Assembly: GCF_000364445.2 (NCBI RefSeq)
Contig: NZ_CP043538.1
Coordinates: forward strand, 937,612-1,001,611
Origin: Methylobacterium mesophilicum SR1.6/6
GTDB lineage: Bacteria > Pseudomonadota > Alphaproteobacteria > Rhizobiales > Beijerinckiaceae
DNA: 64,000 bases
Direction of reading: 5' to 3'
Below are positions 8,442 through 56,700 of this stretch, piece by piece (the first letter of the stretch is position 1; each line of letters begins with the position of its first letter). The position numbers were made by a program, and so were the translations under genes. Below the pieces are notes generated by a model. It was given only the letters and a program-made list of their open reading frames with translations, did no database searches and was not told the DNA's origin.

Positions 8442-8443
8442 TC

Positions 8444-34703: not shown

Positions 34704-34715
34704 AGGAGGCCCGCG

Positions 34716-35990: not shown

Positions 35991-36752
35991 CTGTCATCGT
36001 CTTCCCTGAACGCTGCCGGCGGCGATCCGTCCGAAAGCGCGTCGCGCTTCTTGGAGCGCCTCAGGACCGAGCACGACATCGATCTTGCCAAGGTCGGTCT
36101 GACCTTCGAGGGGTTCCGCGCCCTCGCGCAGAACCCGCACCTCTCCGCCAACGAGCGGATCGGTTTCCCGGAGACGTACCGCGACGGCTTCGAGGAAGCG
36201 ATCCTCCGCGACATCGCGGCCAAGCTCCCGGCACTCCTCGGGACCGGCGCCACCATCGTGGATATCGGGCCCAGATGTGCCGGGCCGCCGCATCGCCTCA
36301 TCGACTTGTGCCGCGAGCGGAACCACCGCCTGGCCCTCGTCGATAGCGCGGAAATGCTCGCGCAGTTGTCCGACGTCGCCGGCGTGACCATGAAGATCGC
36401 CGGGGCGTTCCCGGCGAACCGGGACACCGTCCGGGATGCGATCGGCCAAGCCGACATCGTCCTCTGCTACAGCGTTTTCCATTACGTGTTCGCGTTCGGC
36501 ATCTCGGCCGAGGAGGGCGGCCGCACTGTGAACCCGCGCCTTCTGACCCAGAAGGAGTTTGATAATTCCTATTCAACAGTACTTCATCGGTTTGGGCAAT
36601 GGCTTACGTCATTTTTCTTGGTATTCTACTTACCAATGAATATATGTGGTAAGCACACGGTAAGCAACACTAACAGGTACCCTGCCGCTTCAATTCTCCA
36701 CAGCCTTGCCAAGGCTTCCAATTCCAGGATCGGCGCAACAACCGGAGCATAG
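35991..36752 (+). pseudogene. SAM-dependent methyltransferase, truncated
   Basis: The N-terminal half is a class I methyltransferase: TIVDIGPRCAGPPHRLID corresponds to motif I, LALVDSAEML to motif II and ADIVLCYSVFHYVFAFG to motif IV. After about position 36500-36555 homology stops and the frame enters AT-rich sequence with no family character, ending at 36752. So the 3' half was lost where the AT-rich segment joins. The start is uncertain: AGGAGG at 35980-35985 sits just before a CTG at 35991, while a GTG at 35904 gives a longer N-terminus without a ribosome site. Probably inactive; it may once have modified the amino sugar. Confidence 0.6.
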
Positions 36753-36823
36753 CTGGCAAATTTAGCTATCGGGTGCTTCTCATAGCGCGGGTAGAAGATT
36801 GACTTGATCAATAAGTTCCGCAA
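36626..36823 (-). other. Short AT-rich open frame, possible membrane-protein fragment
   Basis: A 65-codon minus-strand frame (MRNLLIKSIFYPRYEK..., with hydrophobic AAGYLLVLLTVCLPHIFIG near its end) lies antisense to the foreign tail of the truncated methyltransferase frame. It reads like the end of an imported gene, but no family is recognised and its start lacks a good ribosome site. It is recorded because it is the only sign of what the imported segment carried here. Confidence 0.25.
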
Positions 36824-36875
36824 AATAACAGATTACGATTAGAAAGAAGCAAATCTTACTGTGGGTTTAATATAA

Positions 36876-38402: not shown

Positions 38403-38855
38403 GACCGAGGCAGCTCATGCGATAGGCCGATGACGCGGCCCAACAATCGAGGCACCGTTTTGCGGTGCTTGTGGCCTTGCCATCACGTAGGTGTGTCTTT
38501 AATCACGGCTGGTCTTGGCGACATTTGAGGGCCATTGAGGATAGTCCTACCATTCACGCACCACTTGCTCGGAGTAGCGCATTGGAAGCGGGGCACTCAT
38601 AGGCAAAGCGAGCTGACCGCCCCCCCGTATCTAATTTTGATCTGCCCCCCACCCTTTGTCTCGAGTGGGGCTCCCCTGCGACAGGCTACGCGTCGACGTC
38701 CATGGTGACACGGATCGACCCGCTGACTAAAGCTGTCTTTCGCGTTCGTCGCATATATCCCTATGCTACAGATGGCCCCCCAAAAAACCGCTCGAAACTT
38801 CTGCCTTACTGACTGATCTTGTAAGGACATGCCCGCTAAGGATAGCGATTTCGGT
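38403..38855. other. Gap without a supported gene
   Basis: These 453 bases lie between the convergent GT61 and formyltransferase genes. They contain several short C-tracts (seven C at about 38622, six C at about 38645 and again near 38775) and mixed GC content. Frames on both strands are short and show no family signature. Nothing else is seen. Confidence 0.4.
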
Positions 38856-39731
38856 TCATTCCTCTTGCAATTCATTGAAAATGAGAAATCGATCACGGCT
38901 AGATATAGTCACTGGGTCAGTGCGCAACACAATCCCTGGCTTGTGGGGCTCGGAGCGCTCGCCGATAGTCGGAGGTGCAAGAACCCGGTACATTTGTTCT
39001 TTGATCTTTATGCGGGGATAGAGGGAGGGAGGAAATGTAAAAGCTCGCGTAAATCGCTCTACTTGATGTGCAGTCCGGTTAAAGTTAATTACACTGTCGT
39101 TATAGTCGATATCGAACTGCCCGTAATAGGTGGCGATGCTGTCATCCTGCTCATGAGACAAGCTGGTTAGAGACCGAAGGCCAATTGTTGTTAATATTTT
39201 ATCCAAATTCGACCTAACGAGTTCTATTCCAGCCCACTCACAAGAAGTATAAACTTCTCGATTTGACATTTTTTGTATGTCAAAAACCGCCTGATCTATA
39301 ATCGCGCCGGTGTCTATTCCACTATCTATTATATGCAGCGTTACGCCGAAACGCGGTTCACCGTTCAATATTGCATGGGTAATTGGCGCCATCCCACGAT
39401 AAAGCGGGAGAGGCGAAAAATGAAGATTTATAAGCCTATCTCTGCCGGCTTCAATTACCTCCGGCGATAGTATTATTGAAAATTGGATCGACACCAAAAG
39501 GGCAGGTTTTGAAATTATGTAAAAATCTGTCAGCTCTTTGGCATTACGAACGCAAAATACCTTTACCTCGAGCGAATTTGCAAGATCAATGATGGGCTTG
39601 GACGAGTCGTAATCTTTTTCCGCATACACATAATACACTTCATATTTATCGGAATATTTATGTATGAGCGACAAACTCTCTTTACAAACTATGTTTTTCC
39701 CACAAAGAACTACTGTCGGCTTATCAATCAT
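38856..39731 (-). CDS. Sugar N-formyltransferase (Fmt-like, VioF/QdtF/FdtF type)
   Basis: 291 aa enzyme of the formyltransferase fold that uses N10-formyl-tetrahydrofolate. The catalytic triad is visible: Asn102 and His104 in INLHFSPLPLYRG, and Asp140 in the SGIDTGAIID loop. The C-terminal third is not the Fmt tRNA-binding domain but has NRTAHQVERFTRAFTFPP, as in dTDP-amino-sugar formyltransferases, so the substrate is probably a nucleotide amino sugar. AT-rich, unlike its surroundings. With the FdtA/FdtB pair 3 kb upstream it could complete a 3-formamido-3,6-dideoxyhexose; with the aminotransferase at 43533 it could instead formylate a 4-amino sugar. Confidence 0.85.
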   Translation of the reverse strand: MIDKPTVVLCGKNIVCKESLSLIHKYSDKYEVYYVYAEKDYDSSKPIIDLANSLEVKVFCVRNAKELTDFYIISKPALLVSIQFSIILSPEVIEAGRDRLINLHFSPLPLYRGMAPITHAILNGEPRFGVTLHIIDSGIDTGAIIDQAVFDIQKMSNREVYTSCEWAGIELVRSNLDKILTTIGLRSLTSLSHEQDDSIATYYGQFDIDYNDSVINFNRTAHQVERFTRAFTFPPSLYPRIKIKEQMYRVLAPPTIGERSEPHKPGIVLRTDPVTISSRDRFLIFNELQEE

Positions 39732-40046
39732 GTGAGATGCTCTTTTTTACGCTGGCAGCAGAAGGTCCATATCTCGGAAGTTGCAGTCTACTGAGTGTCG
39801 GTGGCGGCTAAGGTGGTGGTTGGCAGCGGCGATCTGTGCCCACGGATCAACGAAAGCGGTAGAGTTTATTTTCATACCAGCCTCTCGCCGACAGCTCAGT
39901 GAGCGCAGGTAGCGGGTTCTTTACCCCATGAGCAAGTTGCGCGTCCGCTCTAGCCAGTTCAGGGAAGCAGAGAGGCCCAACCATCAGCGAAGGGGCTCGG
40001 AAGGCTACGGCGCACGCTCGCTGCCAAATCGCGTTATTATAGCGCC
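39732..40046. other. Gap without a supported gene
   Basis: The 315 bases between the formyltransferase start and the small gene pair at 40047 contain no recognisable protein, RNA or repeat. Composition changes back from AT-rich to GC-rich across it, marking the right border of the imported segment. TTATTATAG at about 40034 might be a -10-like element for the small genes. Confidence 0.35.
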
Positions 40047-40214
40047 TTGAGCAACGATTACGACCGGTTTTGGAGACTGTTACGGCACTCCGGACCGCCG
40101 GTATCGCTGATCGGCGACGAGTTGGAGCGCTGGCAAAGCGAGGACCTGATCTTCTCGGATATTAACGTGCTGCGGCTGGCCGAGAGCCGCGGGCTCGTCG
40201 AGGCCGGGTTATGA
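40047..40214 (+). CDS. Small protein of unknown function, first of a coupled pair
   Basis: 55 codons from a TTG at 40047, reading SNDYDRFWRLLRHSG, later IGDELERWQSEDLIF, and ending SRGLVEAGL. Its TGA overlaps the ATG of the next gene (ATGA at 40211), the pattern of a real two-gene unit. The content is acidic-helical and consistent with a small globular protein. No family recognised with confidence. Confidence 0.4.
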   Translation: MSNDYDRFWRLLRHSGPPVSLIGDELERWQSEDLIFSDINVLRLAESRGLVEAGL

Positions 40215-40501
40215 CGCGAGTGCCCGTTGAGACCTATACGCCGGGCGTAGGCGCCCCGGTACCGCGGCACAGGCGCAACCCGCGCCGGGCCTACGATTCC
40301 ATCGGACGCGAGATTACGCCGGCCACGATCGCGAATAGCATGGAGAATGGCGTTCTGACTCTACGCGCGGAATGCCCGTGTGGGCACGCGGCCGAGCTCC
40401 CGATCGCGCGCTTCCTGCCTGAGAGCTTCGTCCCCGACGCCGGCTTGCGCCTCCGCTGGGAGCGGTGTGGCGCCAAGGAGCCGAAGACTGAACCGGTGTG
40501 A
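40211..40501 (+). CDS. Small putative zinc-ribbon-like protein
   Basis: 96 aa. It contains YDSIGREITPATIANSM, ECPCGHAAELPI with two cysteines and a histidine, and RWERCGAKEPKT with a single cysteine where a zinc ribbon would have C-x-x-C. Proteins with this layout are common small hypotheticals in Methylobacterium genomes and are often near mobile DNA. The second metal knuckle seems to have lost one cysteine (WERC). It is coupled to the small gene upstream by an ATGA overlap. Confidence 0.5.
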   Translation: MTRVPVETYTPGVGAPVPRHRRNPRRAYDSIGREITPATIANSMENGVLTLRAECPCGHAAELPIARFLPESFVPDAGLRLRWERCGAKEPKTEPV

Positions 40502-40626
40502 CCGCAGGTGAGCGACAGGCGATGAGATGACGGCCTCGAACCGCAGGCCAAGATCGGTCCATGGCGTCTTCATGCTGTCATCCCTATCGACCAGATCGCG
40601 ACGACGTGTATCGGAAGGGCAAGATT

Positions 40627-42150
40627 TCAGACATAGGTCCGCAGCACCGTATCCAGGTAATCGAGATCGATGCGGTAATTGCCATGCGTCAGCTCGAGCG
40701 AGCGGCGCCTCTTCTCGGCTCCGGGGCGATAGGCCTCGTGCTCGCCGGGGACGGCCAGGTAACGACACCCGGCAAACGTCGCGAGGCTGGCAAACGTCGA
40801 GAACTGCACGGCGAACGGCGACACAAGTCCCAGGACGAGCGTGCCCGGGGATGCGAAGACTAGGTTGGCGAAGGCGGCACCGATCGGCCCGGCGATGCAA
40901 CGCGCGGTCCTGAAAGCCTCGACCTGCTGCGTGAAGCTGAGCTGACCCGGGTTGACGATCTCGAAGCCGTGCCGGCGAAAGACGGCTTCCACCTCCTCGG
41001 CGTTCGTGATGTTACGCCCCGCGGATCGACCGAGATAAAGCTTTCGCCCCGGCGGGGTGCCGGGCGCCGGCGCGGCGTCGAGCACCCGCCCGCGCAGCCA
41101 GGACAGGCTCGCGTGATTGACAGCGGCAACCGTCCAGAACTCGACATCGGGCGTGTCTGGAATGAAGGTCATCAAGGATGGAACGTAGAGCGTCTTCACG
41201 TCGAGCCGCTTGCCGTGCTCTCGAATCGTGAATGGGCGGCTCGGGAAGAGCAGCTTGAGGGCGTCCATTTCCTGTGGGAACAGATCGTCACTCAGGATGA
41301 GCGGCACATCCTGCGGTATCGACGCGTTGTCGACGATATAGCCCTTCGTGGCGTACTCGATCAGGAAGTGGAAGTAGTTCGCACCGCATCGCCCGATCAG
41401 AAGGATGCCCGCATCGATCGCCCGATCGGCATCCTGCGGGACACGGGCCAGGACCCGGTCGCCCTTGGAGCCGAAGCAGGTGATGACGAACTCGCACTGG
41501 CGGCTCGTGTAGCGGAATGTCGGGTCCGCCTCCGGCTCGTAGACCACGAAGGCAGAATGGGAGACGACCTGAGCGAAGCCGAAGATCGACGCGTCCAGGA
41601 TCGTCGCGCACCAGAGTTCCGGCCTGCACAGTCGACGAGCAGTCGGAGGCTGAGCGGACAGGGCGACCTCTGGATCCGCGAAGTCGAACACGCCGGCTTC
41701 CGCGATGCTGCGGCAGTCGATCCAGGGCACCGCATCCTGCCCGATCCGCACCACCGGGTAAATCGAGCCGAGATCAGTGCCCGCTCCCCCGCTCGGACGT
41801 GCGGGCGATGCGGACCGCACGGCGAGGAAGCGCGCAAGCGCGAGCGCTAGCCGAAGCTGCAGGCCGAAGCCGCGTCGGGTCGCGAGCTGGTTGATGCGGT
41901 AGCGGAAGCAGTCCGTGATGTCCTGACGGCGCTGCCCGAGCATCGCCAGAACGGCGACTAGCACGGGCGACCACGCGTAGATCCGCGCCTCCATGCGCAC
42001 GTTGGGCGCGCGCAACGGCGCCGCGGACCAGTGTCGGGCGAAATGGGCGACCGGATCGACGCCCGCCGCCGCCACATCGGCATTTCGCGTCAGATAATAG
42101 TCACTGTCGACAATCCGGCGCGCGATCCGTAAGGCAAACCACTCCAACAT
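40627..42150 (-). CDS. GT61-type glycosyltransferase with N-terminal FYL module
   Basis: 507 aa, colinear with the low-GC gene at 36876-38402. Residues 17-50 are the module DYYLTRNADVAAAGVDP ... HFARHW and RAPN. A hydrophobic segment (YAWSPVLVAVLAML at about 58-71) follows. The GT61 core includes GRCGANYFHFLIEYATKGY, GRKLYLGRSAGRNITNAEE, HGFEIVNPGQLSFTQQVEAF and GPIGAAFANLVF. The conserved Asn-Tyr-Phe-His and Gly-Ala-Ala-Phe blocks are kept. It probably transfers a sugar during capsule or exopolysaccharide assembly at the inner membrane. The acetyltransferase gene at 42236 is upstream on the same strand. Confidence 0.83.
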   Translation of the reverse strand: MLEWFALRIARRIVDSDYYLTRNADVAAAGVDPVAHFARHWSAAPLRAPNVRMEARIYAWSPVLVAVLAMLGQRRQDITDCFRYRINQLATRRGFGLQLRLALALARFLAVRSASPARPSGGAGTDLGSIYPVVRIGQDAVPWIDCRSIAEAGVFDFADPEVALSAQPPTARRLCRPELWCATILDASIFGFAQVVSHSAFVVYEPEADPTFRYTSRQCEFVITCFGSKGDRVLARVPQDADRAIDAGILLIGRCGANYFHFLIEYATKGYIVDNASIPQDVPLILSDDLFPQEMDALKLLFPSRPFTIREHGKRLDVKTLYVPSLMTFIPDTPDVEFWTVAAVNHASLSWLRGRVLDAAPAPGTPPGRKLYLGRSAGRNITNAEEVEAVFRRHGFEIVNPGQLSFTQQVEAFRTARCIAGPIGAAFANLVFASPGTLVLGLVSPFAVQFSTFASLATFAGCRYLAVPGEHEAYRPGAEKRRRSLELTHGNYRIDLDYLDTVLRTYV

Positions 42151-42235
42151 CGCTGAGATATGTATCCTCTACGTCGAACGACGCATCATGCAGCCGGAAT
42201 CGGGTGTCCAGCACCGTCGCTCGTCGCCGCACCGA

Positions 42236-42829
42236 TCAGGAGGTCTGCAACAAGGCGGAGTGCCGCTCAATGGCCGACGCATGCGCCGACCTGAACGCGT
42301 CATAAGCTTCGCGACTGAAGTGAAAGAAATAATCTTGCTCACCCTCGTCGACGATCTTCGCGCCTGAACGAAGGTGGAAATTGATCACGCTCTCATTTTC
42401 GCGACGCACGTCGAAATGACAATGCTCAAAGCCGAGATGCTCAAATCCCAGTTCGTAGATCACGAGCGCGGAGTAACCTGCGAGGCCGACGACCGGAGGA
42501 GGCGCGATGATCCAGCTGCCCCAACAGAATGACTTCAATCCCTTGATGATCCGAAAATCGTACATCCGGACCGTGCCGCGATCCTGACCATCGGAAACGA
42601 TGATGAAATAGTACTGTCTGCCTGCGGCCTCGTCGTTCTTGTATCGCGTGAGCCACGCTGCCTGCTCTTCCACTGTGGTGGGTGGCGCGTTGAGGAAACG
42701 GCTGAGACGGTTATCAGAGCGCAACCGGTAGATCAGAACCGCGTCGCTCGGCTCAGCCAGCCGCAGATGCGAGCGCCGCCGGCTGTCCAGCGGACGCGTT
42801 TCACGGATCCGGTCGATGGGCATGTGCAT
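42236..42829 (-). CDS. GNAT-family N-acetyltransferase
   Basis: About 197 aa from the ATG at 42829; the frame is open further upstream, and no ribosome site fixes the start. The GNAT fold is recognisable from LRLAEPSDAVLIYRLRSD, YYFIIVSDGQDRGTVRMYDF and the ENESVINFHLRSGAKIVDEG segment, which matches the acetyl-CoA-binding N-x-x-x-x-x-x-x-x-x-GF/GA end of RimJ/PseH-like enzymes. PseH- and WecD-like GNATs N-acetylate 4-amino-4,6-dideoxy sugars, and a 4-aminotransferase gene lies just upstream at 43533, so the same job is plausible here. The acceptor is not proven. Confidence 0.75.
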   Translation of the reverse strand: MHMPIDRIRETRPLDSRRRSHLRLAEPSDAVLIYRLRSDNRLSRFLNAPPTTVEEQAAWLTRYKNDEAAGRQYYFIIVSDGQDRGTVRMYDFRIIKGLKSFCWGSWIIAPPPVVGLAGYSALVIYELGFEHLGFEHCHFDVRRENESVINFHLRSGAKIVDEGEQDYFFHFSREAYDAFRSAHASAIERHSALLQTS

Positions 42830-42983
42830 ACGGGATAGATACGCCTCTGTGAGTGGAACGCGACGAACGCACGGATTTCGGCAAGTCCTGCCACGCGCAG
42901 AGGCCCTTGTCACGCGACGCCTCTGGGACGGTCTGCCGTGGTGCCGACACGTCGTGAGCCATTGGGTTAGACGCGGACGAGGG

Positions 42984-43460
42984 TCACGCATCCCGGTATA
43001 GGATGACTTGGGCTACCGCCGGGTCCGTAAAGTGGGCGAAGCCACCAATCTTCAATGTGGCGTTGACGATCCGCTTCAGATTCGCAGCGTCGGGCCCTGA
43101 ACCCGTGGCCCGGACCGCCAGGAGACGTGCAACCCAGCGAGCGAAACGGAACTCCAGACCCAGATCGCCGCACCAGAGCTCTTGATAATGGGCGACGAAA
43201 CATTGGACTCAGTCGTCGCGCCGGATCGGCAGGACTACGGCCGCCAGCGCCAGGAACGGTGAGAGCCTGATGATGGCCCGCTCCATGGTCGCCGCGCAGA
43301 TGGGCACGGCATGCCCGCATTCGGCGAAGTGTCGGATCGGATCGACTCCGGCCGCGCGGGCGTCTGGATAGCAGTTGAGATAATACTCGGCATCGACCGG
43401 TTTCCGCGCCAGAAACAGGCTGACGCGTGCGCGCAAACTGGAGATGAGGACGGCACTCAT
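42984..43460 (-). pseudogene. Decayed GT61-type glycosyltransferase (N-terminal part)
   Basis: From ATG 43460 the first frame encodes the FYL module (AEYYLNCYPDARAAGVDP, HFAECG) and the hydrophobic helix LSPFLALAAVVLP, then hits a TGA after PIRRDD at 43207-43209. The same frame continues with VAHYQELWCGDLGLEFRFA, WVARLLAVRATG and GGFAHFTDPAVA, matching the corresponding part of the gene at 40627 (LAVRSA, GVFDFADPEVA). It ends at a second TGA at 42984. The remaining two thirds of the GT61 gene are absent. This is a remnant of a third module-bearing GT61 gene. Confidence 0.7.
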
Positions 43461-43532
43461 ACCAATCCCTTCGTGCGTCGGGCGCTCAAGGGCCGGATCG
43501 AGAAACACTCATTATCCCGACGCCGGCCGATC

Positions 43533-44699
43533 TCAGGCTGCGTGCACAGCACCGACGGCGCCGTCCATCACGATGTGACGAAGGATCTGGCAGATTCGCT
43601 CCGCGTTGGCAGTCCCGAGCTCGCCGTAGAAGGGCAGGCAGAGGACTTGGTTGCCCACTCTGTTGGCCACCGGCAGATTGTCGCTCGCACTGTCCGGAAA
43701 GAGACGGTAGGGCTCATACTGGCTGCACAGCGGATAGAAATAGCGACGCGCGAAGACATTGTAGTGCTTGAGGCGGTCGTAAACCTCGTCACGGCTCACG
43801 CCTGCGACGGCCCGGTCGATTCGAAGACAGTAATATTGCAGGCTGTCGGTATCGAGGTCCAGCGGCCGTGAAACGGTGATGCCGGGCACACCGCCGAGGT
43901 GATCCCGGTACACATGCGCGAGGTCCAGCCGCTTTGCCTTCTCGGTCGCGATCGCATCGACCAAGCACAGGCCCATGGCGGCCTGAATCTCGTTCATCTT
44001 GCTGTTGATGCCGACAGCCTTGACGGTTACCTCGTCGGCGATCCCGAAATTCTTGAGCAGCTCCATTCGCCGCTTCACGTCTCCGTCGTTCGTGACCACG
44101 GCCCCGCCCTCCGCGGTGTGGAAGAGCTTTGTGGCGTGGAAGCTGAACATGGTCGCGTCGCCGTAGCTCGCGACGGGCCGGCCGTTGACCCGCGTCCCGA
44201 AAGCGTGGGCGCCGTCGTACAGCACCTTGAGGCAATGCTTGCGCGCGATCCGCTCGATAGCCTCGACGTCACACGGATTGCCGTAGACGTGAACCGCGAG
44301 GATGCCGGTGGTGCGCTCCGTGATCGCGGCCTCGATCCGGGCCGGATCGAGAGTCATCGAATGCTCCTCGATGTCGGCGAAGACCGGCCGGATGCCATGC
44401 CAGGCAAGCACGTGCGGCGTCGCCGCGAACGTGAAGGGGGTGGTGATGACCTCGCCCGAAAGGTCGAAGGCCTTGACCGCCGTCATCAGGGCGTTGGTGC
44501 CGTTGTTGAACAGCGCGATGTGGCCGTCGCCCAAGTGCGCGTGGAGCCGCTTCTCCAGCTCCACGTGCTGCGGCCCGCCGTTCGAGAGAATGGCACACTG
44601 CCAGATCGCCTCCAGATGCTTCGTGAAGACCGCGAGTTCGGGCAGCATCGGACGGGTCACGTAGATCGGCTGCTCGAACGATCGCGGCTCAGCGCTCAT
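43533..44699 (-). CDS. dTDP-4-keto-6-deoxyglucose 4-aminotransferase-like (VioA/DegT family)
   Basis: PLP enzyme, 388 aa; ATG 44699 has a perfect GAGGAGG site. Lys191 lies in FSFHATKLFHTAEGG, the form typical of VioA/RffA/FcnA-type enzymes, and LYDGAHAFGT holds the PLP-ring aspartate. NNGTNALMTAV, VHVYGNPCDVEAIE and FARRYFYPLC are also family features. It should make a 4-amino-4,6-dideoxyhexose (viosamine or thomosamine). It is the last gene of a minus-strand run with the NeuD-like acyltransferase, SDR, carrier proteins, KAS III and FkbH genes, suggesting that the new amino group receives an unusual acyl chain. Confidence 0.87.
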   Translation of the reverse strand: MSAEPRSFEQPIYVTRPMLPELAVFTKHLEAIWQCAILSNGGPQHVELEKRLHAHLGDGHIALFNNGTNALMTAVKAFDLSGEVITTPFTFAATPHVLAWHGIRPVFADIEEHSMTLDPARIEAAITERTTGILAVHVYGNPCDVEAIERIARKHCLKVLYDGAHAFGTRVNGRPVASYGDATMFSFHATKLFHTAEGGAVVTNDGDVKRRMELLKNFGIADEVTVKAVGINSKMNEIQAAMGLCLVDAIATEKAKRLDLAHVYRDHLGGVPGITVSRPLDLDTDSLQYYCLRIDRAVAGVSRDEVYDRLKHYNVFARRYFYPLCSQYEPYRLFPDSASDNLPVANRVGNQVLCLPFYGELGTANAERICQILRHIVMDGAVGAVHAA

Positions 44700-44798
44700 G
44701 GAACCTCCTCGCGATGTTCGGACGCGAGGCCGACCATCTGAACAAATCGAATTTGGAAAGACTGAACTGACGCAGCAATCGGGCGGAGCTGAGGCCGA

Positions 44799-45449
44799 TC
44801 AGGCCGGTTTCGGCGCCGGGGCCACGATGTCCGCCCGGGGCCAGATCGTGGCGTTGTCGGGCAGGGCGCGCAGGACGTTGCAACCCATGCCGACCGTGAC
44901 GCCCTGACCCAGGGTGAGGCCCTGAAGAACCTTAGCGAGCGGCCCGACGAGGCTGTCGGCGCCGATCGTGCAGCGGCCGCCGACGAAAGCGCCCGGCGAG
45001 ATCGTGGTATTGTCGCCGACGACCGTGTCGTGGCCGACGATGGCCGCCGAGTTCAGCACGCAGAAGCGCCCGAGCCGGGCATCGGCGTTGACGATCACCC
45101 CGTGCGCCACGAAGGCGCCGGCGCCGACCGCGACGTCCGGGCTCACGATCGCGCGGGGCGAGACGAGGGCGGGGCAGGGGAGGCCGTGCCGGTCGAGCCA
45201 CGCGATCAGCTCGGCCCGCGCCCGGATCGCGTGCCGGCTCACGCCGCCGACCGCCAGGACGACGCCGTCATACTCCGCCCGGTCGGCGAGCAGCGCGTCG
45301 AGATAGCCGCGGTAGCGGCCGACCTGGACCTCCGGAGCGGTGGAATAGGTATCCTCGACCGTGTGGCCGAGGGCGCGCGCGATCTCGGCGATCTCCTTGG
45401 AGAAGCCGCCGCCGCCGATCAGCGCGAGCCGCTGCCCCGGCCCGGTCAC
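44799..45449 (-). CDS. NeuD/PglD-like hexapeptide acyltransferase
   Basis: 216 aa with the two-part build of the NeuD/PglD family: an N-terminal Rossmann-like sugar-nucleotide domain (LALIGGGGFSKEI at 8-20, then YDGVVLAVGG) and a C-terminal left-handed beta-helix (IVSPDVAVGAGAFVAHG, GRFCVLNSAAIVGHDTVVGD, TIGADSLVGPLAKV). The catalytic histidine is expected in IVGHD. PglD-type enzymes acylate the 4-amino group of UDP- or dTDP-4-amino-6-deoxy sugars. Its stop is 99 bases before the aminotransferase start, and its ATG overlaps the SDR stop. It is the prime candidate for moving the acyl group from the carrier protein or CoA to the amino sugar. Confidence 0.85.
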   Translation of the reverse strand: MTGPGQRLALIGGGGFSKEIAEIARALGHTVEDTYSTAPEVQVGRYRGYLDALLADRAEYDGVVLAVGGVSRHAIRARAELIAWLDRHGLPCPALVSPRAIVSPDVAVGAGAFVAHGVIVNADARLGRFCVLNSAAIVGHDTVVGDNTTISPGAFVGGRCTIGADSLVGPLAKVLQGLTLGQGVTVGMGCNVLRALPDNATIWPRADIVAPAPKPA

Positions 45450-46171
45450 AGCACGGCCCCGCCGTCGACCCGCAGGATCTCGCCGGTGACGTGCCGGGCC
45501 TGGGGCGACATCAGGAACGCGATGGCGTCGACCACGGATTCGACGGTCGCGGCGCCCGCGGGGCTGCGCTTCTCCAGCGCGTCCTTGAAGTCCGCACCGT
45601 ACAGGCGGGCATGGGCCTGGGTCATCTCGGTATCGAGCCAGCCGGGGGCGACGCCGACCGCGCGCCGGGGAGCGAGTTCCCGGGCCAAGCCCTTGATCAG
45701 GGCGTCGAGGCCCGCCTTGGAGGCGGCGTAGGGCACGATCGCCGGCTCGGGCCGCTGCGCCGCGACGGACGAGACCGCGCAGAAGACCGCGTCCCGGGTC
45801 GAGACGCGGGCGCTGCCGAAGGCGGCGGCGAACAGGGTCGGCGCGACGAGGTTGGTGCGATAGAGGCGCTCGACCTCCTCCACGCCCAGGCTGCGCATCG
45901 GCTTGATGACCTGAACGCCCGCGCAGTACACGAGCCCGGTCAGGAGACCCCGCTCGGCGACCGCCGCCTGCAGTACGCCGCCGATCGCCGGCAGGTCGGT
46001 GACGTCGGCCGAGACGGCGGCGCAGCCGAGCGCCTCCAGCTCGGCGAGCCGGTCCGCCCGCCGGGCGAGGGCGGTGATCCGCACCCCGCCCGCGCGGAGG
46101 CGCTCGGCGACGGCGCGACCGATGCCGCTGCTTGCCCCGACGACGAGGACGTGCGCCCCTAACTCCGACAC
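45446..46171 (-). CDS. SDR-family oxidoreductase (FabG-like)
   Basis: Short-chain dehydrogenase, 241 aa, from a GTG at 46171 four bases after the carrier-protein stop. NAD(P) loop GASSGIG at 12-18, YCAGVQ (the NNAG position) near 82, active-site serine in AVSSVAA at about 134 and Y-x-x-x-K in YAASK at 148-152. DGGAVL closes the protein as in FabG. Given the KAS III and carrier genes in the same operon, it probably reduces a 3-ketoacyl-carrier intermediate to the 3-hydroxyacyl form. A role on the sugar itself is the alternative. Confidence 0.87.
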   Translation of the reverse strand: MSELGAHVLVVGASSGIGRAVAERLRAGGVRITALARRADRLAELEALGCAAVSADVTDLPAIGGVLQAAVAERGLLTGLVYCAGVQVIKPMRSLGVEEVERLYRTNLVAPTLFAAAFGSARVSTRDAVFCAVSSVAAQRPEPAIVPYAASKAGLDALIKGLARELAPRRAVGVAPGWLDTEMTQAHARLYGADFKDALEKRSPAGAATVESVVDAIAFLMSPQARHVTGEILRVDGGAVL

Positions 46172-46175
46172 CGGC

Positions 46176-46403
46176 TCAGGCCTGCAGCTTCGCGCCGGCC
46201 AGCGCGATCAGGTCGTCGGTGGTCGCCGCCCCCGCGATCCGCTGCGGATCCACCTCGAGGCCCAGCGTGTCGTAGAGCGCCATGATGTTGAGGATGCCGA
46301 GCGAGTCGAAGGTCTCGATCTCCCCGAGGCTCTGCCCGCGGGCGAGCGGCCCCGGCTGGTCGAGGATCGTACCGAGCTCGTCCAGGAATGCGCCCTCGGT
46401 CAT
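46176..46403 (-). CDS. Acyl carrier protein
   Basis: 75-aa carrier protein. The phosphopantetheine-accepting serine is Ser34 in TFDSLGILNIMALYD, and helices before and after have the acidic carrier-protein character. ATG 46403 overlaps the KAS III stop (ATGA). It is not the housekeeping AcpP, which normally sits by fabG/fabF and is more acidic. It probably holds the acyl chain built by the KAS III and reduced by the SDR on either side. Confidence 0.85.
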   Translation of the reverse strand: MTEGAFLDELGTILDQPGPLARGQSLGEIETFDSLGILNIMALYDTLGLEVDPQRIAGAATTDDLIALAGAKLQA

Positions 46404-47440
46404 CGGGTGGTCTCCTCGTAGGTCAGGACCGGGGGCGCGAAGATCCGGTCGGTGGTGATCGTGCAGGCTCCCCAGCTTAGCCCGACCCCGAAGCCGGCGA
46501 GCAGCGAGCGCACCCGCCGACCCGCATAGGCCTCCGCGAGGAAGCCCGAGATCGTGCCGGGGATCGAGGCCGAGTTCTGGTTGCCGTAGACCGACTGGGT
46601 GCCGGTCGGGAGCTTGCTGTCGTCGAGTCCCAGGCGGCGCTGGAGGTTCTTGAGGATGTACTTGTTCGGCTGGTGCAGGACCAGGAAGTCGACGTCCTCG
46701 GCGCGCGTGTCCGAGAAGGCCAGGATGCCCTCGATCAGCGGCGGGACACGCTTGAGGGTGAAGTTGAAGACCTGCGCCCCGTCCATGTGCATGGTGCCGG
46801 GCTTGCCCGCGTCCTCGGCGTCGGCGCGGAGGCCGCTGTGCGGGATGAACAGGGCCTTCTCGCCCGAGCCGTCGCTGTGGAGCTGGAAGAAGCTCTCGCT
46901 CTCGCGCCGCTCGATCAGCACCGCGGCGCCGGCGTCACCCATGATCGGCGTGATCGACCGGTCCCCGGTCGCGACCATGCGGCTCGCGACATCGCCGACG
47001 CAGAGCAGGACGCGGTTGAGACCGGATTCGACCAGGCTGTAGGCGACCGACAACCCGTAGACAAAGCCGCTGCAGCCGAGGCGAATGTCGAAGCAGAGCG
47101 TGTCGGTCCGCATGCCGAGGCGGTGCTGCATCCCGATCGACGTGGACGGCGAGCTGTAATCCGGGGTCTGGGTGACCAGGATCAGGCCGTCGACGGCGTC
47201 GGGCGGCAGGTCGAGGCCGCTCAGGAGCTGCCGCGCCGAGTGCAGGCAGAGATCCGCCGTCGTGGTGCTGGGATCGGCGACCACGTGCCGGGTCGAGAAG
47301 CCCATGGCCCGCTTGAGGCGCTCCGCCTCCTCGGGTGCGAGCCCGAGGCCGGCCGCCTCGTCGTCGAAGGCCTGGACGCGCGCGCCGATCGTGGTGACAA
47401 GCCCCGCGAGGGTCGCGCGCGAGAACCGCAGGTCAGCCAT
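46400..47440 (-). CDS. 3-oxoacyl-ACP synthase III family protein (KAS III)
   Basis: Condensing enzyme of the FabH type, 346 aa. The catalytic triad is visible: Cys123 in RLGCSGFVYGL, His in VLHQPNKYI and Asn in VYGNQNSASIP. GDAGAAVLIE and the FGVGLSWGA end are family features. It would start chain elongation by condensing an acyl-CoA with malonyl-ACP, or transfer a short acyl unit. It overlaps the upstream carrier-like gene by eight bases and the downstream carrier gene by ATGA. KAS III genes of this kind occur in flagellin- and O-antigen-glycan islands that build 3-hydroxybutyryl amino sugars. Confidence 0.88.
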   Translation of the reverse strand: MADLRFSRATLAGLVTTIGARVQAFDDEAAGLGLAPEEAERLKRAMGFSTRHVVADPSTTTADLCLHSARQLLSGLDLPPDAVDGLILVTQTPDYSSPSTSIGMQHRLGMRTDTLCFDIRLGCSGFVYGLSVAYSLVESGLNRVLLCVGDVASRMVATGDRSITPIMGDAGAAVLIERRESESFFQLHSDGSGEKALFIPHSGLRADAEDAGKPGTMHMDGAQVFNFTLKRVPPLIEGILAFSDTRAEDVDFLVLHQPNKYILKNLQRRLGLDDSKLPTGTQSVYGNQNSASIPGTISGFLAEAYAGRRVRSLLAGFGVGLSWGACTITTDRIFAPPVLTYEETTR

Positions 47441-47750
47441 GCTCGACCGTCTCGGCGACGTAGTCGATCCAGCCCTGGAAGCGGCGGAGCGGCGACTTCG
47501 TGCTGTCGAGGATGCTCTCGTTGGCGAGCGGCACGTAGCGGCCGACCGTCCGCTCGATCTCGGATTCCGTCTCGAGGAGGAGTTCGACCACCGCGAAGGA
47601 ATCGAGCCCCTCGTAGACGTCGTCCTCGGGCCCGGGATTCTCCAGATCCGGGCGTCCCCAGGTCTCGACGAGCCGCGCGAAGGTCGCGCGGGCAGCCGCC
47701 TCGACGGCGCCGCGGTCACTCCGCGACGATGTGGATGTAGGGGGTGTCAT
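47433..47750 (-). CDS. Second acyl-carrier-like protein
   Basis: 105 aa. The core looks like a carrier protein: DDVYEGLDSFAVVELLLETE places Ser51 at the phosphopantetheine position. An N-terminal tail of about 15 residues and a C-terminal extension (SPLRRFQGWIDYVAETVE) make it longer than the other carrier. It overlaps the FkbH gene by 35 bases upstream and the KAS III gene downstream, so translation is tightly coupled. FkbH proteins load glyceryl units from 1,3-bisphosphoglycerate onto a discrete carrier; this one is the natural partner. Confidence 0.75.
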   Translation of the reverse strand: MTPPTSTSSRSDRGAVEAAARATFARLVETWGRPDLENPGPEDDVYEGLDSFAVVELLLETESEIERTVGRYVPLANESILDSTKSPLRRFQGWIDYVAETVEHG

Positions 47751-49323
47751 CCGGTCCTCGTGTCAGTCGGTACGTCTTGCCATTGGGGCCAGCGCTGAGG
47801 GGTTCGAAGCCGTTGTCGTCCAGGAAGGTCTCGACCATGCGATTCTTCGCGCTCAGGCGATACTGGGCCTTCAGGTTCCGATCGCCCTCCTGCTGGCAGA
47901 CGTGGCGCAGAATTTGGGCCTCGATGCGGCGTCCGAGGGCCCGGCAGCTCATTAGGAACGTCTCGAGCTCACCGCCCCGGACGATGGCGACCCCGACGAT
48001 GCCCATGTCGCCGAACCGGTCGACCACCCGGGCGGCGTAGACGCCGCCCTCACGCATGGCGGTCGCGACCTCGTCCTCGGTGTAGCGCCGGGTTGTAAGG
48101 TTGAACTGGTTGGTCTTGTTTATCAGCTGCGTGACCCGCCGCAGGGAGCCCGGGTTGTTGCGGGCAACGTGCACGCGGATCTCGAGGGAGGCGAGGTATT
48201 CGTCCATCGAGGCGGCGGAGCGCTGAAGCTCCTGGCGCTGGGCCTCGCCGCGGTACTGCTCGGTCTTGGCCAGATCCTCGGCGGTGACGTTGCGAGCGCG
48301 TAAGGAAGCGATTCCGTCGAGCAGGCTGAGTGCCTGCTCGGGGCGCGTCCGGTCGAACAGGTGGCACTCGACCCCGGGGAGCCGGGCGCGGACCTCCTCG
48401 ATCTCAAACGGGTTATCGTCGAGGAAGATGAAGCTGTCGAGGCCGAGGTTCAGGGTCGCCGCGAGGTCGCGGATGTTCTCGCTCTTCTCCGACCAGTTGC
48501 TGCGGTAGGCCACGAAATCGTCGAGGTGCAAGGGCATCGCGCGCTGGGCGAAGACCGCGCGGAAATCCTCCTCGTTGTTCTTCGTCACCGCGCAGAGCAG
48601 GATCCCGAGGCTCTTCAAGCGCAGGAGCTGGCGCTGGAGCTGAGTGTGGACGATCCCCGGATAGTCGCTGTCGACTTCCAGGTTCTCCACGCCGTCCTCG
48701 CCGACGACGCCGCCCCAGAGAGTGTTGTCGGCATCGACCACCACCACCTTGCGCCGCGCCCGCAGCCGCGCCGCGACGGCGTCGGCGTAGCGCTCGACCA
48801 GCGCGTCCACGGCGGCCGGGGCGTAGGGCATCTGGTACATGTACCGGTTTCGCTCGCGGAAGGCGTTGGCGAAGCCGAGCAGCGTCAGGGCGCCGGCGGC
48901 GTCGACGACGCTGACGCGCTCCTGCGCCCGAGCGAGCTCGAACAGCACCCCGTTGACTTGCGCCAGCGCCTCCAACTGGTCGTGGAGGTCGCTCTCGACG
49001 GACGAGACCGGCCTGAACGGCACGGTGTTGAGGATGATCGTCCCCGGCGCCTGGGCGAGCCGCGCCGAAACCAGTTCGGCGAGGCCGCGCGCGCGGGCCA
49101 CGGCCGCCTCGTCTGGGGCGACGTCAAAGAACCAGCGATGGTCGAGATGCACGATCAGGACGTCGGCCACGGCGGATCCCGCCAGCACCTGCTCGATCTG
49201 CCCGATGGGGAGATGCTCGCACGAGACCGTGGCGAGATCCGCGAGGCGGCCCGCCACCTTCCCGAACGGGTTGGTGACGACGTTTCCGACAAAACCGATC
49301 GACAGGGCGCGAGCCGTGGTCAT
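47716..49323 (-). CDS. FkbH-like protein (HAD-IIIC phosphatase plus GNAT-like domain)
   Basis: 535 aa from the ATG at 49323. The N-terminal ~190 residues resemble an SGNH-like/FkbH-specific region (GFVGNVVTNPFGKVAG). The HAD-IIIC domain has VVVVDADNTLWGGVVGEDG with Asp197 and Asp199, then AVTKNNEEDF and FIFLDDNPFEIEEV. The C-terminal part (about 375-520) contains RVTQLINKTNQFNLTTRRY and FGDMGIVGVAIV, as in FkbH and other glyceryltransferase/phosphatase enzymes. The family forms glyceryl-S-ACP for polyketide extender units; some members work in glycan or lipid modification. As first gene of the operon it probably defines the acyl precursor. Confidence 0.87.
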   Translation of the reverse strand: MTTARALSIGFVGNVVTNPFGKVAGRLADLATVSCEHLPIGQIEQVLAGSAVADVLIVHLDHRWFFDVAPDEAAVARARGLAELVSARLAQAPGTIILNTVPFRPVSSVESDLHDQLEALAQVNGVLFELARAQERVSVVDAAGALTLLGFANAFRERNRYMYQMPYAPAAVDALVERYADAVAARLRARRKVVVVDADNTLWGGVVGEDGVENLEVDSDYPGIVHTQLQRQLLRLKSLGILLCAVTKNNEEDFRAVFAQRAMPLHLDDFVAYRSNWSEKSENIRDLAATLNLGLDSFIFLDDNPFEIEEVRARLPGVECHLFDRTRPEQALSLLDGIASLRARNVTAEDLAKTEQYRGEAQRQELQRSAASMDEYLASLEIRVHVARNNPGSLRRVTQLINKTNQFNLTTRRYTEDEVATAMREGGVYAARVVDRFGDMGIVGVAIVRGGELETFLMSCRALGRRIEAQILRHVCQQEGDRNLKAQYRLSAKNRMVETFLDDNGFEPLSAGPNGKTYRLTRGPDDTPYIHIVAE

Positions 49324-49502
49324 CCTCGATACCGGTCCCTGCGACACCCTGCGGATGCCTGCCATCCGGCGATCGACCGGCCCCTTTCCGTGCGTGCGAG
49401 CGCCGCCCTCTTGCGAGATCGCGTGCCATAAAGCAAGGGGCCTAGCATCCGGTGGCCAGCCAGTCCGGCCAGGGAGGAGACCGGCCGAGGAGGAGCTGCG
49501 CG
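49324..49502. promoter_or_regulatory. Divergent promoter region of the acyl-amino-sugar cluster
   Basis: These 179 bases separate the FkbH operon (minus) from the MaoC-SDR gene (plus) and must carry both promoters. An AGGAGGAG ribosome site for the plus-strand gene is at about 49488-49495. No specific operator was recognised. Confidence 0.4.
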
Positions 49503-50936
49503 ATGAACGGATCCGGTTCGGACGACGCCGCCGCGACGACGCGGATCTGGAACGAGGCCCATCAGGCCGCTTTCGCGCGGGCCACCGGCGACGTGAACCC
49601 GATGCACATGGACGCGCGGATGGCCCGGCGGACGCTGGCCGGCGAGCGGGCCGTCCACGGCGTCCACGCCGCCCTCTGGGCCCTCGATGCCTGCGCCGAC
49701 GCCCATCCCCTCGACCGGCTCGCGACGCTGCAGATGCGGTTCGAGCGGTTCGTGCTGGTCGGGGACCGCACCGTCCTGACGCTCCACGAGGCGGACGCGG
49801 GGCACCTGCGCCTGTCCATAGCGGTGAACGGCGTCCGCACTCTAACGATCCAGGGGACCTTCGCGGCGGAGCGAGCCCCAGCCCGGCCGGTCGATGCGGC
49901 GCCGGGCGCGATCCCCGCGGAGCCGGTCGCCCGCGATCCGGCGACGCTGACGGGTCTCGCCGGGGCCTTCGCGCTGCCAAGCCCGGAAGCGATCGCCGCC
50001 CTGGCACCGCGCCTCGCCCGCGCCCTCGGTCCCCGCCGGGTCGCGGCCCTGGGGGGCCTCTCGACCTTGGTCGGCATGTTCGTGCCCGGCTTCCACTCGA
50101 TCCTCTCGAAGATCGACGTGACCGTCACCGAGGGAGGCACCGGTTCGAGCCTCGGCTACGCGGTTAAGCGCTTCCAGCCGATGCTGCAATCGGTGACGCT
50201 GGACGCCGTCGGCCCGGGCCTCGTCGCACGGGTTGAGGGCTTCGTCCGCCCGCGGCCGGTGGAGCAGGAGAGCCTGCAGGACCTTGCGGCGCTCGTGGAG
50301 CCCGGCGCCTTCGCTGCGGTGTCCGCCCTGATCGTCGGCGGGTCGCGGGGCCTCGGCGCCGCAACCGCCAAGCTGATCGCCGCCGGGGGCGGGGCGGTCT
50401 GCATCACCTACGCGTCCGGCGCCGAAGAGGCGGAGACGATCGCCCGGGAAATCCGCGACACCGGCGGGCGCTGCCAAGTCCTCCGCTATGACGCTGCCGA
50501 GCCCCCCGCCGCGCAGCTCGCGGCGCTGGCGATGCGGCCGTCGCAGCTCTACCATTTCGCGACGCCCCGCATCTTCCGCCAGAAGCGCGCGCCCTTCGAG
50601 CCGGCCTGCCTGGACGAGATGATGCGCGTCTACAACACCGCCTTCTACGAGCTGAGCCAGTTCTGCCTGGAGCGCGGCGACGCGGTGGCGGCCTTCTATC
50701 CGTCGACCAGCGCCATCGACGAGGCGCCCCGCGACATCCTGGAATACGTTATGGCCAAGATCGCGGGCGAGACGCTGGCAGCAACCCTGGCGCGCACGCT
50801 CCCGAACCTGCGGACGGTGATCGCGCGGCTGCCCCGGGTGAAGACTGATCAGACGGCCACTATCTTCCCCGTGCCAGCCGCCGCCCCGAGCGCGCTAATG
50901 CTGCCGATAATCCGCCAGATGTCGGCAATTGCCTGA
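49503..50936 (+). CDS. MaoC-like dehydratase / SDR fusion protein
   Basis: 477 aa; ATG 49503 follows AGGAGG. Residues about 13-115 are a hot-dog MaoC-type domain with ATGDVNPMHMD (27-37, Asp and His of the hydratase site) and RAVHGVHAALWAL. A second, weaker hot-dog-like segment may occupy 150-265. Residues about 275-477 are an SDR domain: LIVGGSRGLGAATAKLI at 276-292, Tyr415 and Lys419 in LEYVMAK. It could hydrate or dehydrate and reduce a carrier- or CoA-bound acyl chain in one polypeptide. Divergent from the FkbH operon, so it probably belongs to the same pathway. Confidence 0.8.
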   Translation: MNGSGSDDAAATTRIWNEAHQAAFARATGDVNPMHMDARMARRTLAGERAVHGVHAALWALDACADAHPLDRLATLQMRFERFVLVGDRTVLTLHEADAGHLRLSIAVNGVRTLTIQGTFAAERAPARPVDAAPGAIPAEPVARDPATLTGLAGAFALPSPEAIAALAPRLARALGPRRVAALGGLSTLVGMFVPGFHSILSKIDVTVTEGGTGSSLGYAVKRFQPMLQSVTLDAVGPGLVARVEGFVRPRPVEQESLQDLAALVEPGAFAAVSALIVGGSRGLGAATAKLIAAGGGAVCITYASGAEEAETIAREIRDTGGRCQVLRYDAAEPPAAQLAALAMRPSQLYHFATPRIFRQKRAPFEPACLDEMMRVYNTAFYELSQFCLERGDAVAAFYPSTSAIDEAPRDILEYVMAKIAGETLAATLARTLPNLRTVIARLPRVKTDQTATIFPVPAAAPSALMLPIIRQMSAIA

Positions 50937-53790: not shown

Positions 53791-56700
53791 GTGCTGCCGC
53801 CGGCGAGCTTCGAGCAGGCCGGACAGAAGGTGCGCGGCCCGAGCGACGTGCTGGAGCGCAAGGTCGGGACCTGCCTCGATCTCTCGCTGCTCTACGCGGC
53901 CTGCTTGGAGCAAGCCGGGCTCAATCCGGTGCTCGTGTTGACCGCCGGTCACGCCTTCGTCGGCGTCTGGCTCCAGGATGAAGATTTTTCGAGCGCGGCC
54001 GTCGACGACATGCAGCTCCTGCGCAAGCGGCGCGATCTGCAGGATTTGATCCTCGTCGAGACGACGCTGCTGACCCACAATCCGCCAGCGGCATTCAAGG
54101 TCGCCACAACGCAAGGTGGCGTCCAGGTCGAGGACGAAGCGCCCGCGGCGCTTGAGGTCGCCATCGACGTTCGGCGCTGCCGCCAGCGCGGCATCCGCCC
54201 GATGGATCTCGGCGGCGTAAAAGCCGGTCTGGTCAATCCTGCGCCGATCCAACTCATCAGCCAGCCGCTCGGCGCGACGCCGGTATTCGACGATGAGCAT
54301 CGAGCTCCCGTCGACGAAGCTCCGGAAACCCCAGTCGGACGCATGGAACGCTGGAAGCGCAAGCTTCTTGACCTGACGCTGCGGAACAAGCTCCTGAACT
54401 TCAAGCCCGGGAAAGGCTCCGTCGTCCTCGAATCCATCTCGCCTGGAGCCTTGGAGGATGGCCTCGCTGCGGGGCACGAGTTTCGGTTGAAGCCCGTCTC
54501 CGATGTGTTGAATGGGTCCGACGAGCGCAGTGCCGACCTCTACGCGCGCCGACACCATGACGATGGTCGCCGCAGCTACCTCGAGGCGGCGCTTGCCCGG
54601 AAGGAGATCTACACGACCTCGACCGAGGCCGATCTCGATCGTCGCCTGCTCGATCTCTATCGGCTCGCTCGCAACGGTTTCGAGGAGGGCGGGGCCAACA
54701 TCCTCTTCCTCGCGATCGGCTTTCTGTCGTGGATGAAAAAGGACGGCGAGGACGCGTACCGCGCGCCGCTACTGTTGGTACCGGTCTCGCTCAAGCGCTC
54801 CAGCGTCCGAGCTGGCTTCAAGCTCGCGCTCCACGACGACGAGGTGCGGATCAACCCGACCCTGCTGGAGATGCTGCGCGAGGACTTCAAACTCCGCATG
54901 CCGGAGCTCGAAGGCGATCTGCCGCGAGATGGGTCCGGGTACGACGTCGACGGCATCTTCCGGATCGTCCGCCAGCACGTGAAGGAGCTGCGCGGCTGGG
55001 AGGTGGTGCCGGACGTCGTGCTCTCGGCCTTCTCCTTCACCAAATACCTGATGTGGAAGGACTTGGTCGACCGCGCCGAGCTCCTGAAGCGCAATCCGGT
55101 TGTGCGCCACCTCATCGAGACGCCAAAGCATTCCTACGGCGACAGCATACCATTTCCGGAACCGGCGCGTCTCGACCAGGAGCACCCGCCCGAGACCGTG
55201 TTTGCGCCGCTCTCGGCCGACTCCTCTCAGCTCTCTGCGGTCCTGGCCGCCGCCAGCGGCAAGGACTTCGTGCTGTTCGGGCCGCCTGGCACCGGCAAGA
55301 GCCAGACGATCGGCAACATGATCGCCCAGTGCCTCGCCCATGGGCGTACCGTGCTGTTCGTCTCACAGAAGACGGCCGCCCTGGAGGTCGTGCAGCGCCG
55401 CCTGCAGGAGATCGGCCTCGGCGACTATTGCCTGGAGGTGCATTCGACCAAGTCCCAAAAATCGGCCGTGCTTGGTCAGCTGCGCCGCGCCTGGCACGAG
55501 CGGACGACGCCCACGCAGGGTGCTTGGAATGCGGCTACGAGTGAGCTCGAGAGCCTACGCGAAGAACTCAACGGGCTCGTAAACGCGCTGCACCGGCGGC
55601 GCGAGAACGGGTTCTCGGCCTACGAGGCCTTCGGTCGTGTGATCGCGGCCGGCAGCAGTGATGCTCCAATCGTGCTCGCGTGGCCGGATCACCTCGCGCA
55701 TAACGAGACGACGCTCGCGACCTTGCGTGTGAGCTGCCGGGAGCTTCGGCCTGTCCTGGCCGCCGTCGGTTCGCTCGTGGATCACCCGCTGCAAGGTGTC
55801 GCGGCCATCCGATGGTCACCCGTCTGGCGCGACGACATGGGTGCGGCGAGTCGAACCGTTGAACAGGCGCTCGGCGCGCTTCGTGTCAGCGGACAGGCTT
55901 TCGCCGAGGCGATTGGTCTGCCTTCCCTGGTCTCGACCTATGCCGGCACGCGCGCGCTCATGGTGCTCGGCAACTACCTCGTCCGCCCCGAGGCACGCTG
56001 CGGGGCTGCGTTCCTCGCCGACGGCGCTGGCGATCTGCGACGAGCCGTCGTCGCGCGCGATCGCTTTCAGGTAACGAAGGCTCAGCTTCTCGGTCGGCTC
56101 TCCGGCCGATACGGCCCAGGCATTCTCGATCAGAACCTGCCAGGGCTCCTCGCCGAATGGGTCGCCGCGCAAGCGTCGAATTTCCTCGTTCGCGGCGGCA
56201 AGCTCAAGCGCGTGGTGGTCCAGGTGCAGCCCTATGCCGAGAGCGATCTGCCCGCCGATCTCGGACCGGACCTCACCGGTCTGATCGAAGTCGCCAAGCA
56301 TGTGAAAGCCGGGTGCCTGGAGGAGCTCGTTCTCGCTCGGCTCGGGCTGCCCTGGAGTAACCCGGAACTGCCAGTTGCCGAGTTTCAACCAGCGATCGCC
56401 TGGGCCGAGAAGCTCGAGCAGCTTCTCGACATCCTCGGTCCCCTGTCGCCCGGGATCGATGGTCTGCGCGACCACCTTGTGCAACTAATCGAGCGCCAGA
56501 CCCGGGCTCTCGCCGAAGGCGGTCGCATTGCCCAGGCCCATGCGGTGTTTGCGCAGGATCATTCCCGGGCGACCGAGGCCATGAAAGCGCTCAGCCAGAT
56601 TGCAGGGCGTGCTGATCCCGAGGAGCCGTTGCCGACAGACGCCGATTGGATCGAGGCGAGCATCGTCCTTGCCCGGCGCTGGGCATCCGGTCTCGGGCGA

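Follow-up and report, generated by a model that had tools for sequence, protein, structure and literature searches.

What acyl group does a gene set make that joins an FkbH-like enzyme and two carrier proteins to a KAS III and a sugar-type acyltransferase, and where does this group go? The question is raised by a cassette in a 64,000 nt stretch of Methylobacterium mesophilicum SR1.6/6 (genome of 6.56 Mb), which we refer to as the window. Its genes encode, on the minus strand, FkbH, carrier protein 1, KAS III, carrier protein 2, a short-chain dehydrogenase/reductase (SDR), a PglD-like acyltransferase and a DegT-family aminotransferase, with a divergent gene for a MaoC-SDR fusion. The product is most likely a hydroxylated acyl group that is derived from a three-carbon intermediate of sugar metabolism and placed on a cell-surface amino sugar. 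We consider it probable that the cassette makes an acyl group for a sugar amine; our best explanation as a whole, a cassette devoted to assembling an acyl group for an amino sugar with glyceryl as the primer, we regard as evenly poised.

A preliminary description of this DNA had named eight open reading frames (ORFs), and matches to Pfam and NCBIfam models place all eight in the families that it gave. The FkbH-like enzyme (535 aa, 47716..49323, minus strand; TIGR01686, 273.1 bits with a cut-off of 146.65) starts at 49323, and its relatives are 535 aa long. It consists of an N-terminal GDSL-like part, a HAD phosphatase and a C-terminal GNAT-like part, and both the HAD and GNAT folds were recognized. 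The HAD DxDxT motif and the Cys in SCRALGR of the GNAT-like part, which mark the family, are invariant in a 21-row alignment (a role for this Cys is general background). The KAS III (346 aa, 46400..47440, minus strand; PF08545/PF08541) was said to have an intact Cys-His-Asn set, and indeed Cys122, His255 and Asn286 are invariant in 22 rows.

The two carriers had no Pfam match even at an E-value of 5, and both show an Asp-Ser (DS) site in 26 of 26 aligned rows, two of which (L005 and L107) seem to come from a single genome. Carrier 2 (75 aa, 46176..46403, minus strand) presumably holds the malonyl unit and the product, and carrier 1 (105 aa, 47433..47750, minus strand) presumably holds glyceryl. 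The assignment of carrier 1 draws also on a conserved stretch of its own and on a structure model, which forms a three-helix bundle with a mean predicted local distance difference test score of 89.7. A Foldseek search with this model gave no match at E <= 0.001, and among its weak matches 10 of the first 17 rows were named carrier proteins or domains. In the model, what had been described as a C-terminal extension looks like an internal conserved stretch between the second and third long helix, not a tail.

The SDR (45446..46171, minus strand; PF13561/PF00106) is a presumed 3-oxoacyl reductase. The PglD/NeuD/VioB-like hexapeptide enzyme (44799..45449, minus strand), the single acyltransferase that the cassette holds for its two carriers, scores 155.6 bits with TIGR03570 (NeuD/PglB/VioB), just below the cut-off of 160.8; its PDB matches include a pilin glycosylation protein (4m98, E 3.2e-19), a perosamine N-acetyltransferase (4ea7) and VioB (7txp, E 1.2e-17). 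The DesI/VioA-like aminotransferase (43533..44699, minus strand) belongs to the DegT family (PF01041, DegT/DnrJ, 319 bits; best PDB match 2po3, E 1.8e-78), and it is predicted to be a dTDP-sugar 4-aminotransferase, although its best family model, TIGR04427 (DesI), scores 347.8 bits, below the cut-off of 650. RmlB is encoded in the genome. The minus-strand genes overlap or lie no more than 4 bp apart, in line with the tight coupling described earlier, except for 99 bp between PglD and DegT. For the divergent MaoC-SDR fusion (477 aa, 49503..50936, plus strand; PF01575, 39 bits; PF00106, 30 bits), the ATG at 49503 is more probably the start than the ORF start at 49452.

We analyzed the distribution of the cassette in 111 Methylobacterium genomes, including that of the window. 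The KAS III was found in 17 of them (E <= 1e-90), and all 17 have FkbH, carrier 1, KAS III, carrier 2 and PglD in the same order, together with the divergent MaoC-SDR; the SDR is present in 16. Outside the genus we scanned genome records with a KAS III alignment and considered the best 80 of 596 stretches, a sample in which the absence of a taxon means nothing. FkbH and carrier 1 lie directly before KAS III in ten of these loci (L005-L014), which come from M. fujisawaense, a Bacteroidetes metagenome-assembled genome (MAG), Massilia and seven Campylobacterota MAGs. The M. fujisawaense locus (L005) and one genome of the Methylobacterium survey (L107) seem to be the same genome and were counted once. 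Altogether there are at least 26 distinct FkbH-carrier-KAS III-carrier cassettes, 17 in Methylobacterium and nine (L006-L014) elsewhere (seven in Campylobacterota and one each in Massilia and the Bacteroidetes MAG), and thus they span three phyla. In L010, FkbH is a fragment at the end of the contig.

The rear part of the unit is more variable. SDR and PglD continue the order in five of the nine loci (L006-L010), so that a PglD-like N-acyltransferase ends the unit both in Methylobacterium and in these five. In L011-L014 they do not, and in the three of these that were scanned (L011, L013 and L014) a GNAT acyltransferase directly follows carrier 2. The combination of one front end with acyltransferases of either the PglD or the GNAT type points to a product that serves as an acyl donor and is moved between acceptors. 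The MaoC-SDR, described as a divergent neighbor, keeps this place in 17 of 17 Methylobacterium cassettes but was seen in only one of the nine other loci (L006, with 29% identity and on the same strand, some 3 kb upstream; for L010 there is no upstream DNA), and so it looks like an accessory gene.

Several further searches bear on this distribution. Two other loci among the best 80 (L019 and L065) have an FkbH-like gene (about 33% identity), though not in the position directly before KAS III. For Undibacterium, Roseomonas and Sphingopyxis entries, among others, KAS III and FkbH matches lie on contigs of equal size, which hints at more cassettes of this kind, adjacency not being shown thereby. 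A single-sequence KAS III search of 297 genomes of the order (E <= 1e-60) returned the genome of the window only. The profile search of the class (E <= 1e-90) matched 3 of 385 genomes and added two loci, L086 and L087, with no FkbH match within about 4 kb. The plasmid search gave 23 matching records, all below 60% identity and 19 of them from Azospirillum, and the phage search gave two. One candidate relative, L034 (C. taeniopygiae), was rejected, since the gene before its KAS III encodes an AMP-binding ligase and not FkbH.

The pathway that we propose has five steps. Loading of glyceryl from 1,3-bisphosphoglycerate is known FkbH chemistry; here, FkbH would take glyceryl from this intermediate, strip the phosphate and load carrier 1. 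KAS III would then use the glyceryl thioester as primer for a single condensation with the malonyl unit of carrier 2. Reduction of the 3-oxo group by the SDR would leave a 3,4,5-trihydroxypentanoyl-type chain on carrier 2, which the MaoC-SDR may modify further. From the protein families and the comparison with described systems, the PglD-like enzyme would move the acyl group onto the amino group of a nucleotide-linked 4-amino-4,6-dideoxyhexose, which would come from the DegT enzyme. Finally, a GT61 enzyme would place the sugar, the copy beside DegT being truncated in the window. The nearest gene sets make N-acyl groups on 4-amino sugars, and from the comparisons as a whole we take a glyceryl primer with a single extension as the best reading. 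The product is likely a glyceryl-primed, once-extended and reduced acyl group, for example 3,4,5-trihydroxypentanoyl. Priming of KAS III by glyceryl, taken by itself, is a tentative assignment close to an even balance. More tentatively still, there may be a KAS III subfamily primed by glyceryl-carrier in place of acetyl-CoA, and a portable cassette that delivers polyhydroxylated C5 acyls, in three phyla, to N-acyltransferases for 4-amino sugars that are of the PglD or the GNAT type and unrelated in fold.

A further argument comes from the KAS III phylogeny. In trees of 81 KAS III rows, the 11 FkbH-linked sequences form one side of a single branch, with full support by FastTree (100) and by IQ-TREE SH-aLRT (100), and none of 500 shuffles scored as low, a result that kinship among the sequences alone would favor. 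In all members of this branch among the rows analyzed, FkbH and carrier 1 immediately precede the KAS III gene. Conversely, a search of the phylum for FkbH (E <= 1e-80) had matches in 46 of 398 genomes, and among the 30 matches whose loci were examined, the window's own included, the 29 others (30-40% identity) had no KAS III match within 3.3-4.6 kb. The KAS III link therefore marks a subgroup of FkbH. Outside the window, the genome has another FkbH-like gene (G000:C1:307336-308523, 326 bits to the profile). The FkbH-linked branch, if its members have indeed switched primers, would be a testable case of such a change.

The rival that survives best, though unlikely, concerns this step. Here KAS III would take acetyl-CoA as its primer and make 3-hydroxybutanoyl together with carrier 2 and the SDR, while FkbH and carrier 1 would supply a separate glyceryl group for another position. 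Such an arrangement agrees with the vioS-vioR-acp-vioB-vioA genes of Pseudomonas syringae, whose published list has no FkbH and whose sugar bears a 3-hydroxy-1-oxobutyl group (PMC3927599). In contrast, the cassette has just one acyltransferase, and the FkbH-linked KAS IIIs form a branch of their own, each with FkbH and carrier 1 directly upstream. The positions that contact CoA in E. coli FabH were considered as an indicator of primer type and dropped, as neither the FkbH-linked nor the unlinked KAS IIIs have these residues.

The neighbors of the cassette point to an amino sugar as the acceptor. At least three of the nine loci outside Methylobacterium (L006, L008 and L013) lie beside genes of the legionaminic or pseudaminic acid type. 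NeuB and NeuC, both over their cut-offs, adjoin the cassette in L006, and PseI, also over its cut-off, follows the GNAT acyltransferase in L013. In L008, a LegC-type aminotransferase, a 4,6-dehydratase-type protein and a PglB-type oligosaccharyltransferase are nearby, all scoring below the curated NCBIfam cut-offs. In L009, a DegT-like gene lies at a distance of about 8 kb.

A number of observations weigh against a glyceryl-primed cassette dedicated to an amino sugar. No gene for amino-sugar synthesis was recognized close by among the few ORFs scanned in L007, L009 and L010. The Bacteroidetes case is a single MAG contig, for which a binning error is possible. Since the E. coli-type CoA-contact residues are absent from both groups of KAS III, they do not discriminate between primers. 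In the Methylobacterium locus L119, the SDR is gone between carrier 2 and PglD (8432-8601, no tblastn match), which offers a setting in which to ask whether the MaoC-SDR can substitute through its SDR part. Only six of the 17 Methylobacterium cassette genomes have DegT beside PglD; for the other 11, no match to it was obtained at E <= 1e-60. In those 11, few family matches were obtained downstream of PglD among the ORFs tried, some of which may be spurious in such GC-rich DNA. Moreover, separation of the DegT genomes from the DegT-less ones is not confined to the acyltransferase. In label permutations (5000 shuffles of the between-within difference; the genomes are related, so these values are guides only), it extends to carrier 1 (0.086, 11/5000 as high), KAS III (0.062, 21/5000), carrier 2 (0.058, 21/5000), the SDR (0.024, 29/5000) and FkbH (0.016, 38/5000).

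The preliminary description fares unevenly on this point. Its proposal that a sugar amine receives an acyl group made for it gains support from the conserved unit, the PglD-like ends, the amino-sugar neighbors and the nearest described gene sets, and the gene order, which it had suggested comparing with other genomes, is conserved. In contrast, the VioA-like neighbor that it took as a fixed partner accompanies the cassette in a minority of the Methylobacterium genomes. It had also held that homologous sets found consistently apart from a sugar aminotransferase would tell against the proposal, and the 11 genomes lacking a close DegT go halfway in that direction.

The DegT genomes nevertheless carry a distinctive acyltransferase. 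PglD identity is 81-97% within the six DegT genomes and 62-98% within the eleven others, and 62-77% between the two sets. PglD has the largest difference by permutation (0.130, 0/5000 as high), and this difference survives regression on KAS III and FkbH distance (5/5000); the MaoC-SDR shows none (3072/5000 as high). Two genomes have PglD and DegT nearest to the window's group on a different background. In L116, the clearest case, the closest relatives of all six acyl genes are in DegT-less strains (89-100%), and in L111 this holds for five of six (88-99%), FkbH being the exception. L108 has no such break except in the MaoC-SDR. PglD and DegT behave as a pair, combined in two genomes with acyl genes from a different lineage. 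Such exchange between strains that keep the other acyl genes provides ready-made comparisons.

The DegT-less genomes could also be read to mean that the acyl group is destined for a small molecule or a lipid and not for a surface sugar, an alternative that we hold to be quite improbable. KAS III and carriers do occur in metabolite clusters as well, and 11 of the 17 Methylobacterium cassette genomes have no close relative of the aminotransferase. Against this stand the PglD-like or GNAT acyltransferases beside nonulosonic acid-type genes in other phyla and the GT61 and other glycan genes around the cassette.

The GT61-type gene beside DegT is a remnant in the window (43047..43508, minus strand). 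It aligns with roughly the N-terminal 156 of the 533 residues encoded by an open frame in L105, and its own open frame ends at 43209 (ORF of 99 aa). Its identity is 86% to L105, 77% to L111, 55% to L116 and 53% to L108, the four of the five other DegT genomes that have a GT61 gene after DegT on the same strand. In L104 the GT61 gene near DegT is on the opposite strand and has little similarity to the remnant (36% over residues 15-87). Given the truncation, this enzyme may not serve for sugar transfer in the window strain. Other GT61 genes and further glycan genes lie near the cassette in the window. A second glycan block (32240-42991) contains another DegT aminotransferase (34716-35837), GT61 genes at 32240, 36876 and 40627, a formyltransferase (38856-39731) and a GNAT with a weak PseH match (42236-42991). 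Elsewhere in the window, a 556-aa ORF (30248-31915, minus strand) encodes an NAD-dependent epimerase/dehydratase (PF01370, 154 bits). Since the domain starts at residue 241, translation may in fact begin at an internal site. A 1790-aa protein (53791-59163) combines DUF4011, superfamily 1 helicase parts, an MTES_1575 nuclease domain and DUF3320, a make-up presumably of the kind met in candidate defense proteins.

Four described systems resemble parts of the cassette. In the glycerate-utilization operon of tetronates, as described, an FkbH-like enzyme and a stand-alone carrier accompany a FabH-like enzyme that uses the glyceryl carrier (PMC7489565), a trio with counterparts in the FkbH, carrier and FabH-like KAS III of the window. 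By analogy, KAS III could join glyceryl on carrier 1 to a 3-oxoacyl group on carrier 2 and form a tetronic acid ring. We find this very unlikely. The FabH-like enzyme of that operon forms the tetronate and releases a polyketide (PMC7489565), whereas the window has a second carrier, a reductase and a sugar-type N-acyltransferase, and no polyketide synthase gene is among the cassette genes. Agg4-type acyltransferase and Agg5-type dehydratase partners were not recognized in the cassette, which instead has the hexapeptide enzyme, the SDR and the MaoC-SDR (no direct comparison with Agg4 and Agg5 was made). Least probable is an oxidized extender (hydroxy- or methoxymalonyl-carrier) supplied by FkbH and added by KAS III to an acetyl primer: FkbH has that part in methoxymalonyl pathways as outlined in PMC7489565, but the two dehydrogenases and the O-methyltransferase of such a locus were not recognized among the cassette genes, where alone they were sought, so that the methoxymalonyl-like product suggested earlier lacks its branch.

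The remaining systems concern amino sugars, as does the glyceryl-primed pathway. The O-polysaccharide genes wfpC to wfpG of Flavobacterium psychrophilum combine a carrier, 3-ketoacyl-ACP synthases and a reductase with a pglD homologue proposed to pass 3,5-dihydroxyhexanoyl to UDP-Qui2NAc4N; the passage on these genes names two ketosynthases and one carrier and does not mention FkbH (PMC6519341). Campylobacter jejuni 11168 has di-O-methylglyceroyl pseudaminic acid on its flagellin (PMC3068675) and the FkbH-domain gene cj1302 in its flagellin glycan locus (PMC7099621), that is, a glycerate-derived group on an amino sugar together with an FkbH-domain gene; the likeness is one of description, as no passage in these sources ties cj1302 to the di-O-methylglyceroyl group. 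In open-access literature, no paper among the matches listed combined FkbH with pseudaminic or legionaminic terms or with Methylobacterium glycans, and none contained 'trihydroxypentano'. Among the matches listed for O-antigen, FkbH occurred in one paper, on pathway software, and among those for viosamine or flagellin it occurred in PMC7099621. This is weak evidence, confined to open-access papers, that the cassette is not in print.

The closest counterpart is the viosamine island of P. syringae pv. tabaci 6605, which has vioA, vioB, vioS, vioR and acp, makes viosamine with a 3-hydroxybutanoyl group, loses that sugar in a vioR mutant and has a counterpart in P. aeruginosa PAK (PMC3927599). Both gene sets comprise an aminotransferase (DegT family in the window), a carrier, a KAS III, a 3-oxoacyl reductase (a reductase-type SDR) and a VioB-type acyltransferase (PglD-like), as expected for a 4-N-acyl-4,6-dideoxyhexose. 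The published seven-gene list of the island has no FkbH or second carrier and includes the methyltransferase VioM and the transferase VioT (PMC3927599), neither of which was recognized among the cassette genes, the part of the genome searched for them; the window in turn has the MaoC-SDR and GT61 genes. The preliminary description was correct in pointing to Pseudomonas viosamine islands with KAS III and ACP genes, and this makes the core less new than it had implied. If our reading is true, glycolysis-derived glycerate chemistry, best known from antibiotics, would be joined to surface sugars, and a class of N-acyl groups detectable by mass in glycans is predicted. The core of aminotransferase, carrier, KAS III, reductase and acyltransferase is already known from P. 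syringae, and the addition in the window is an FkbH with a carrier of its own.

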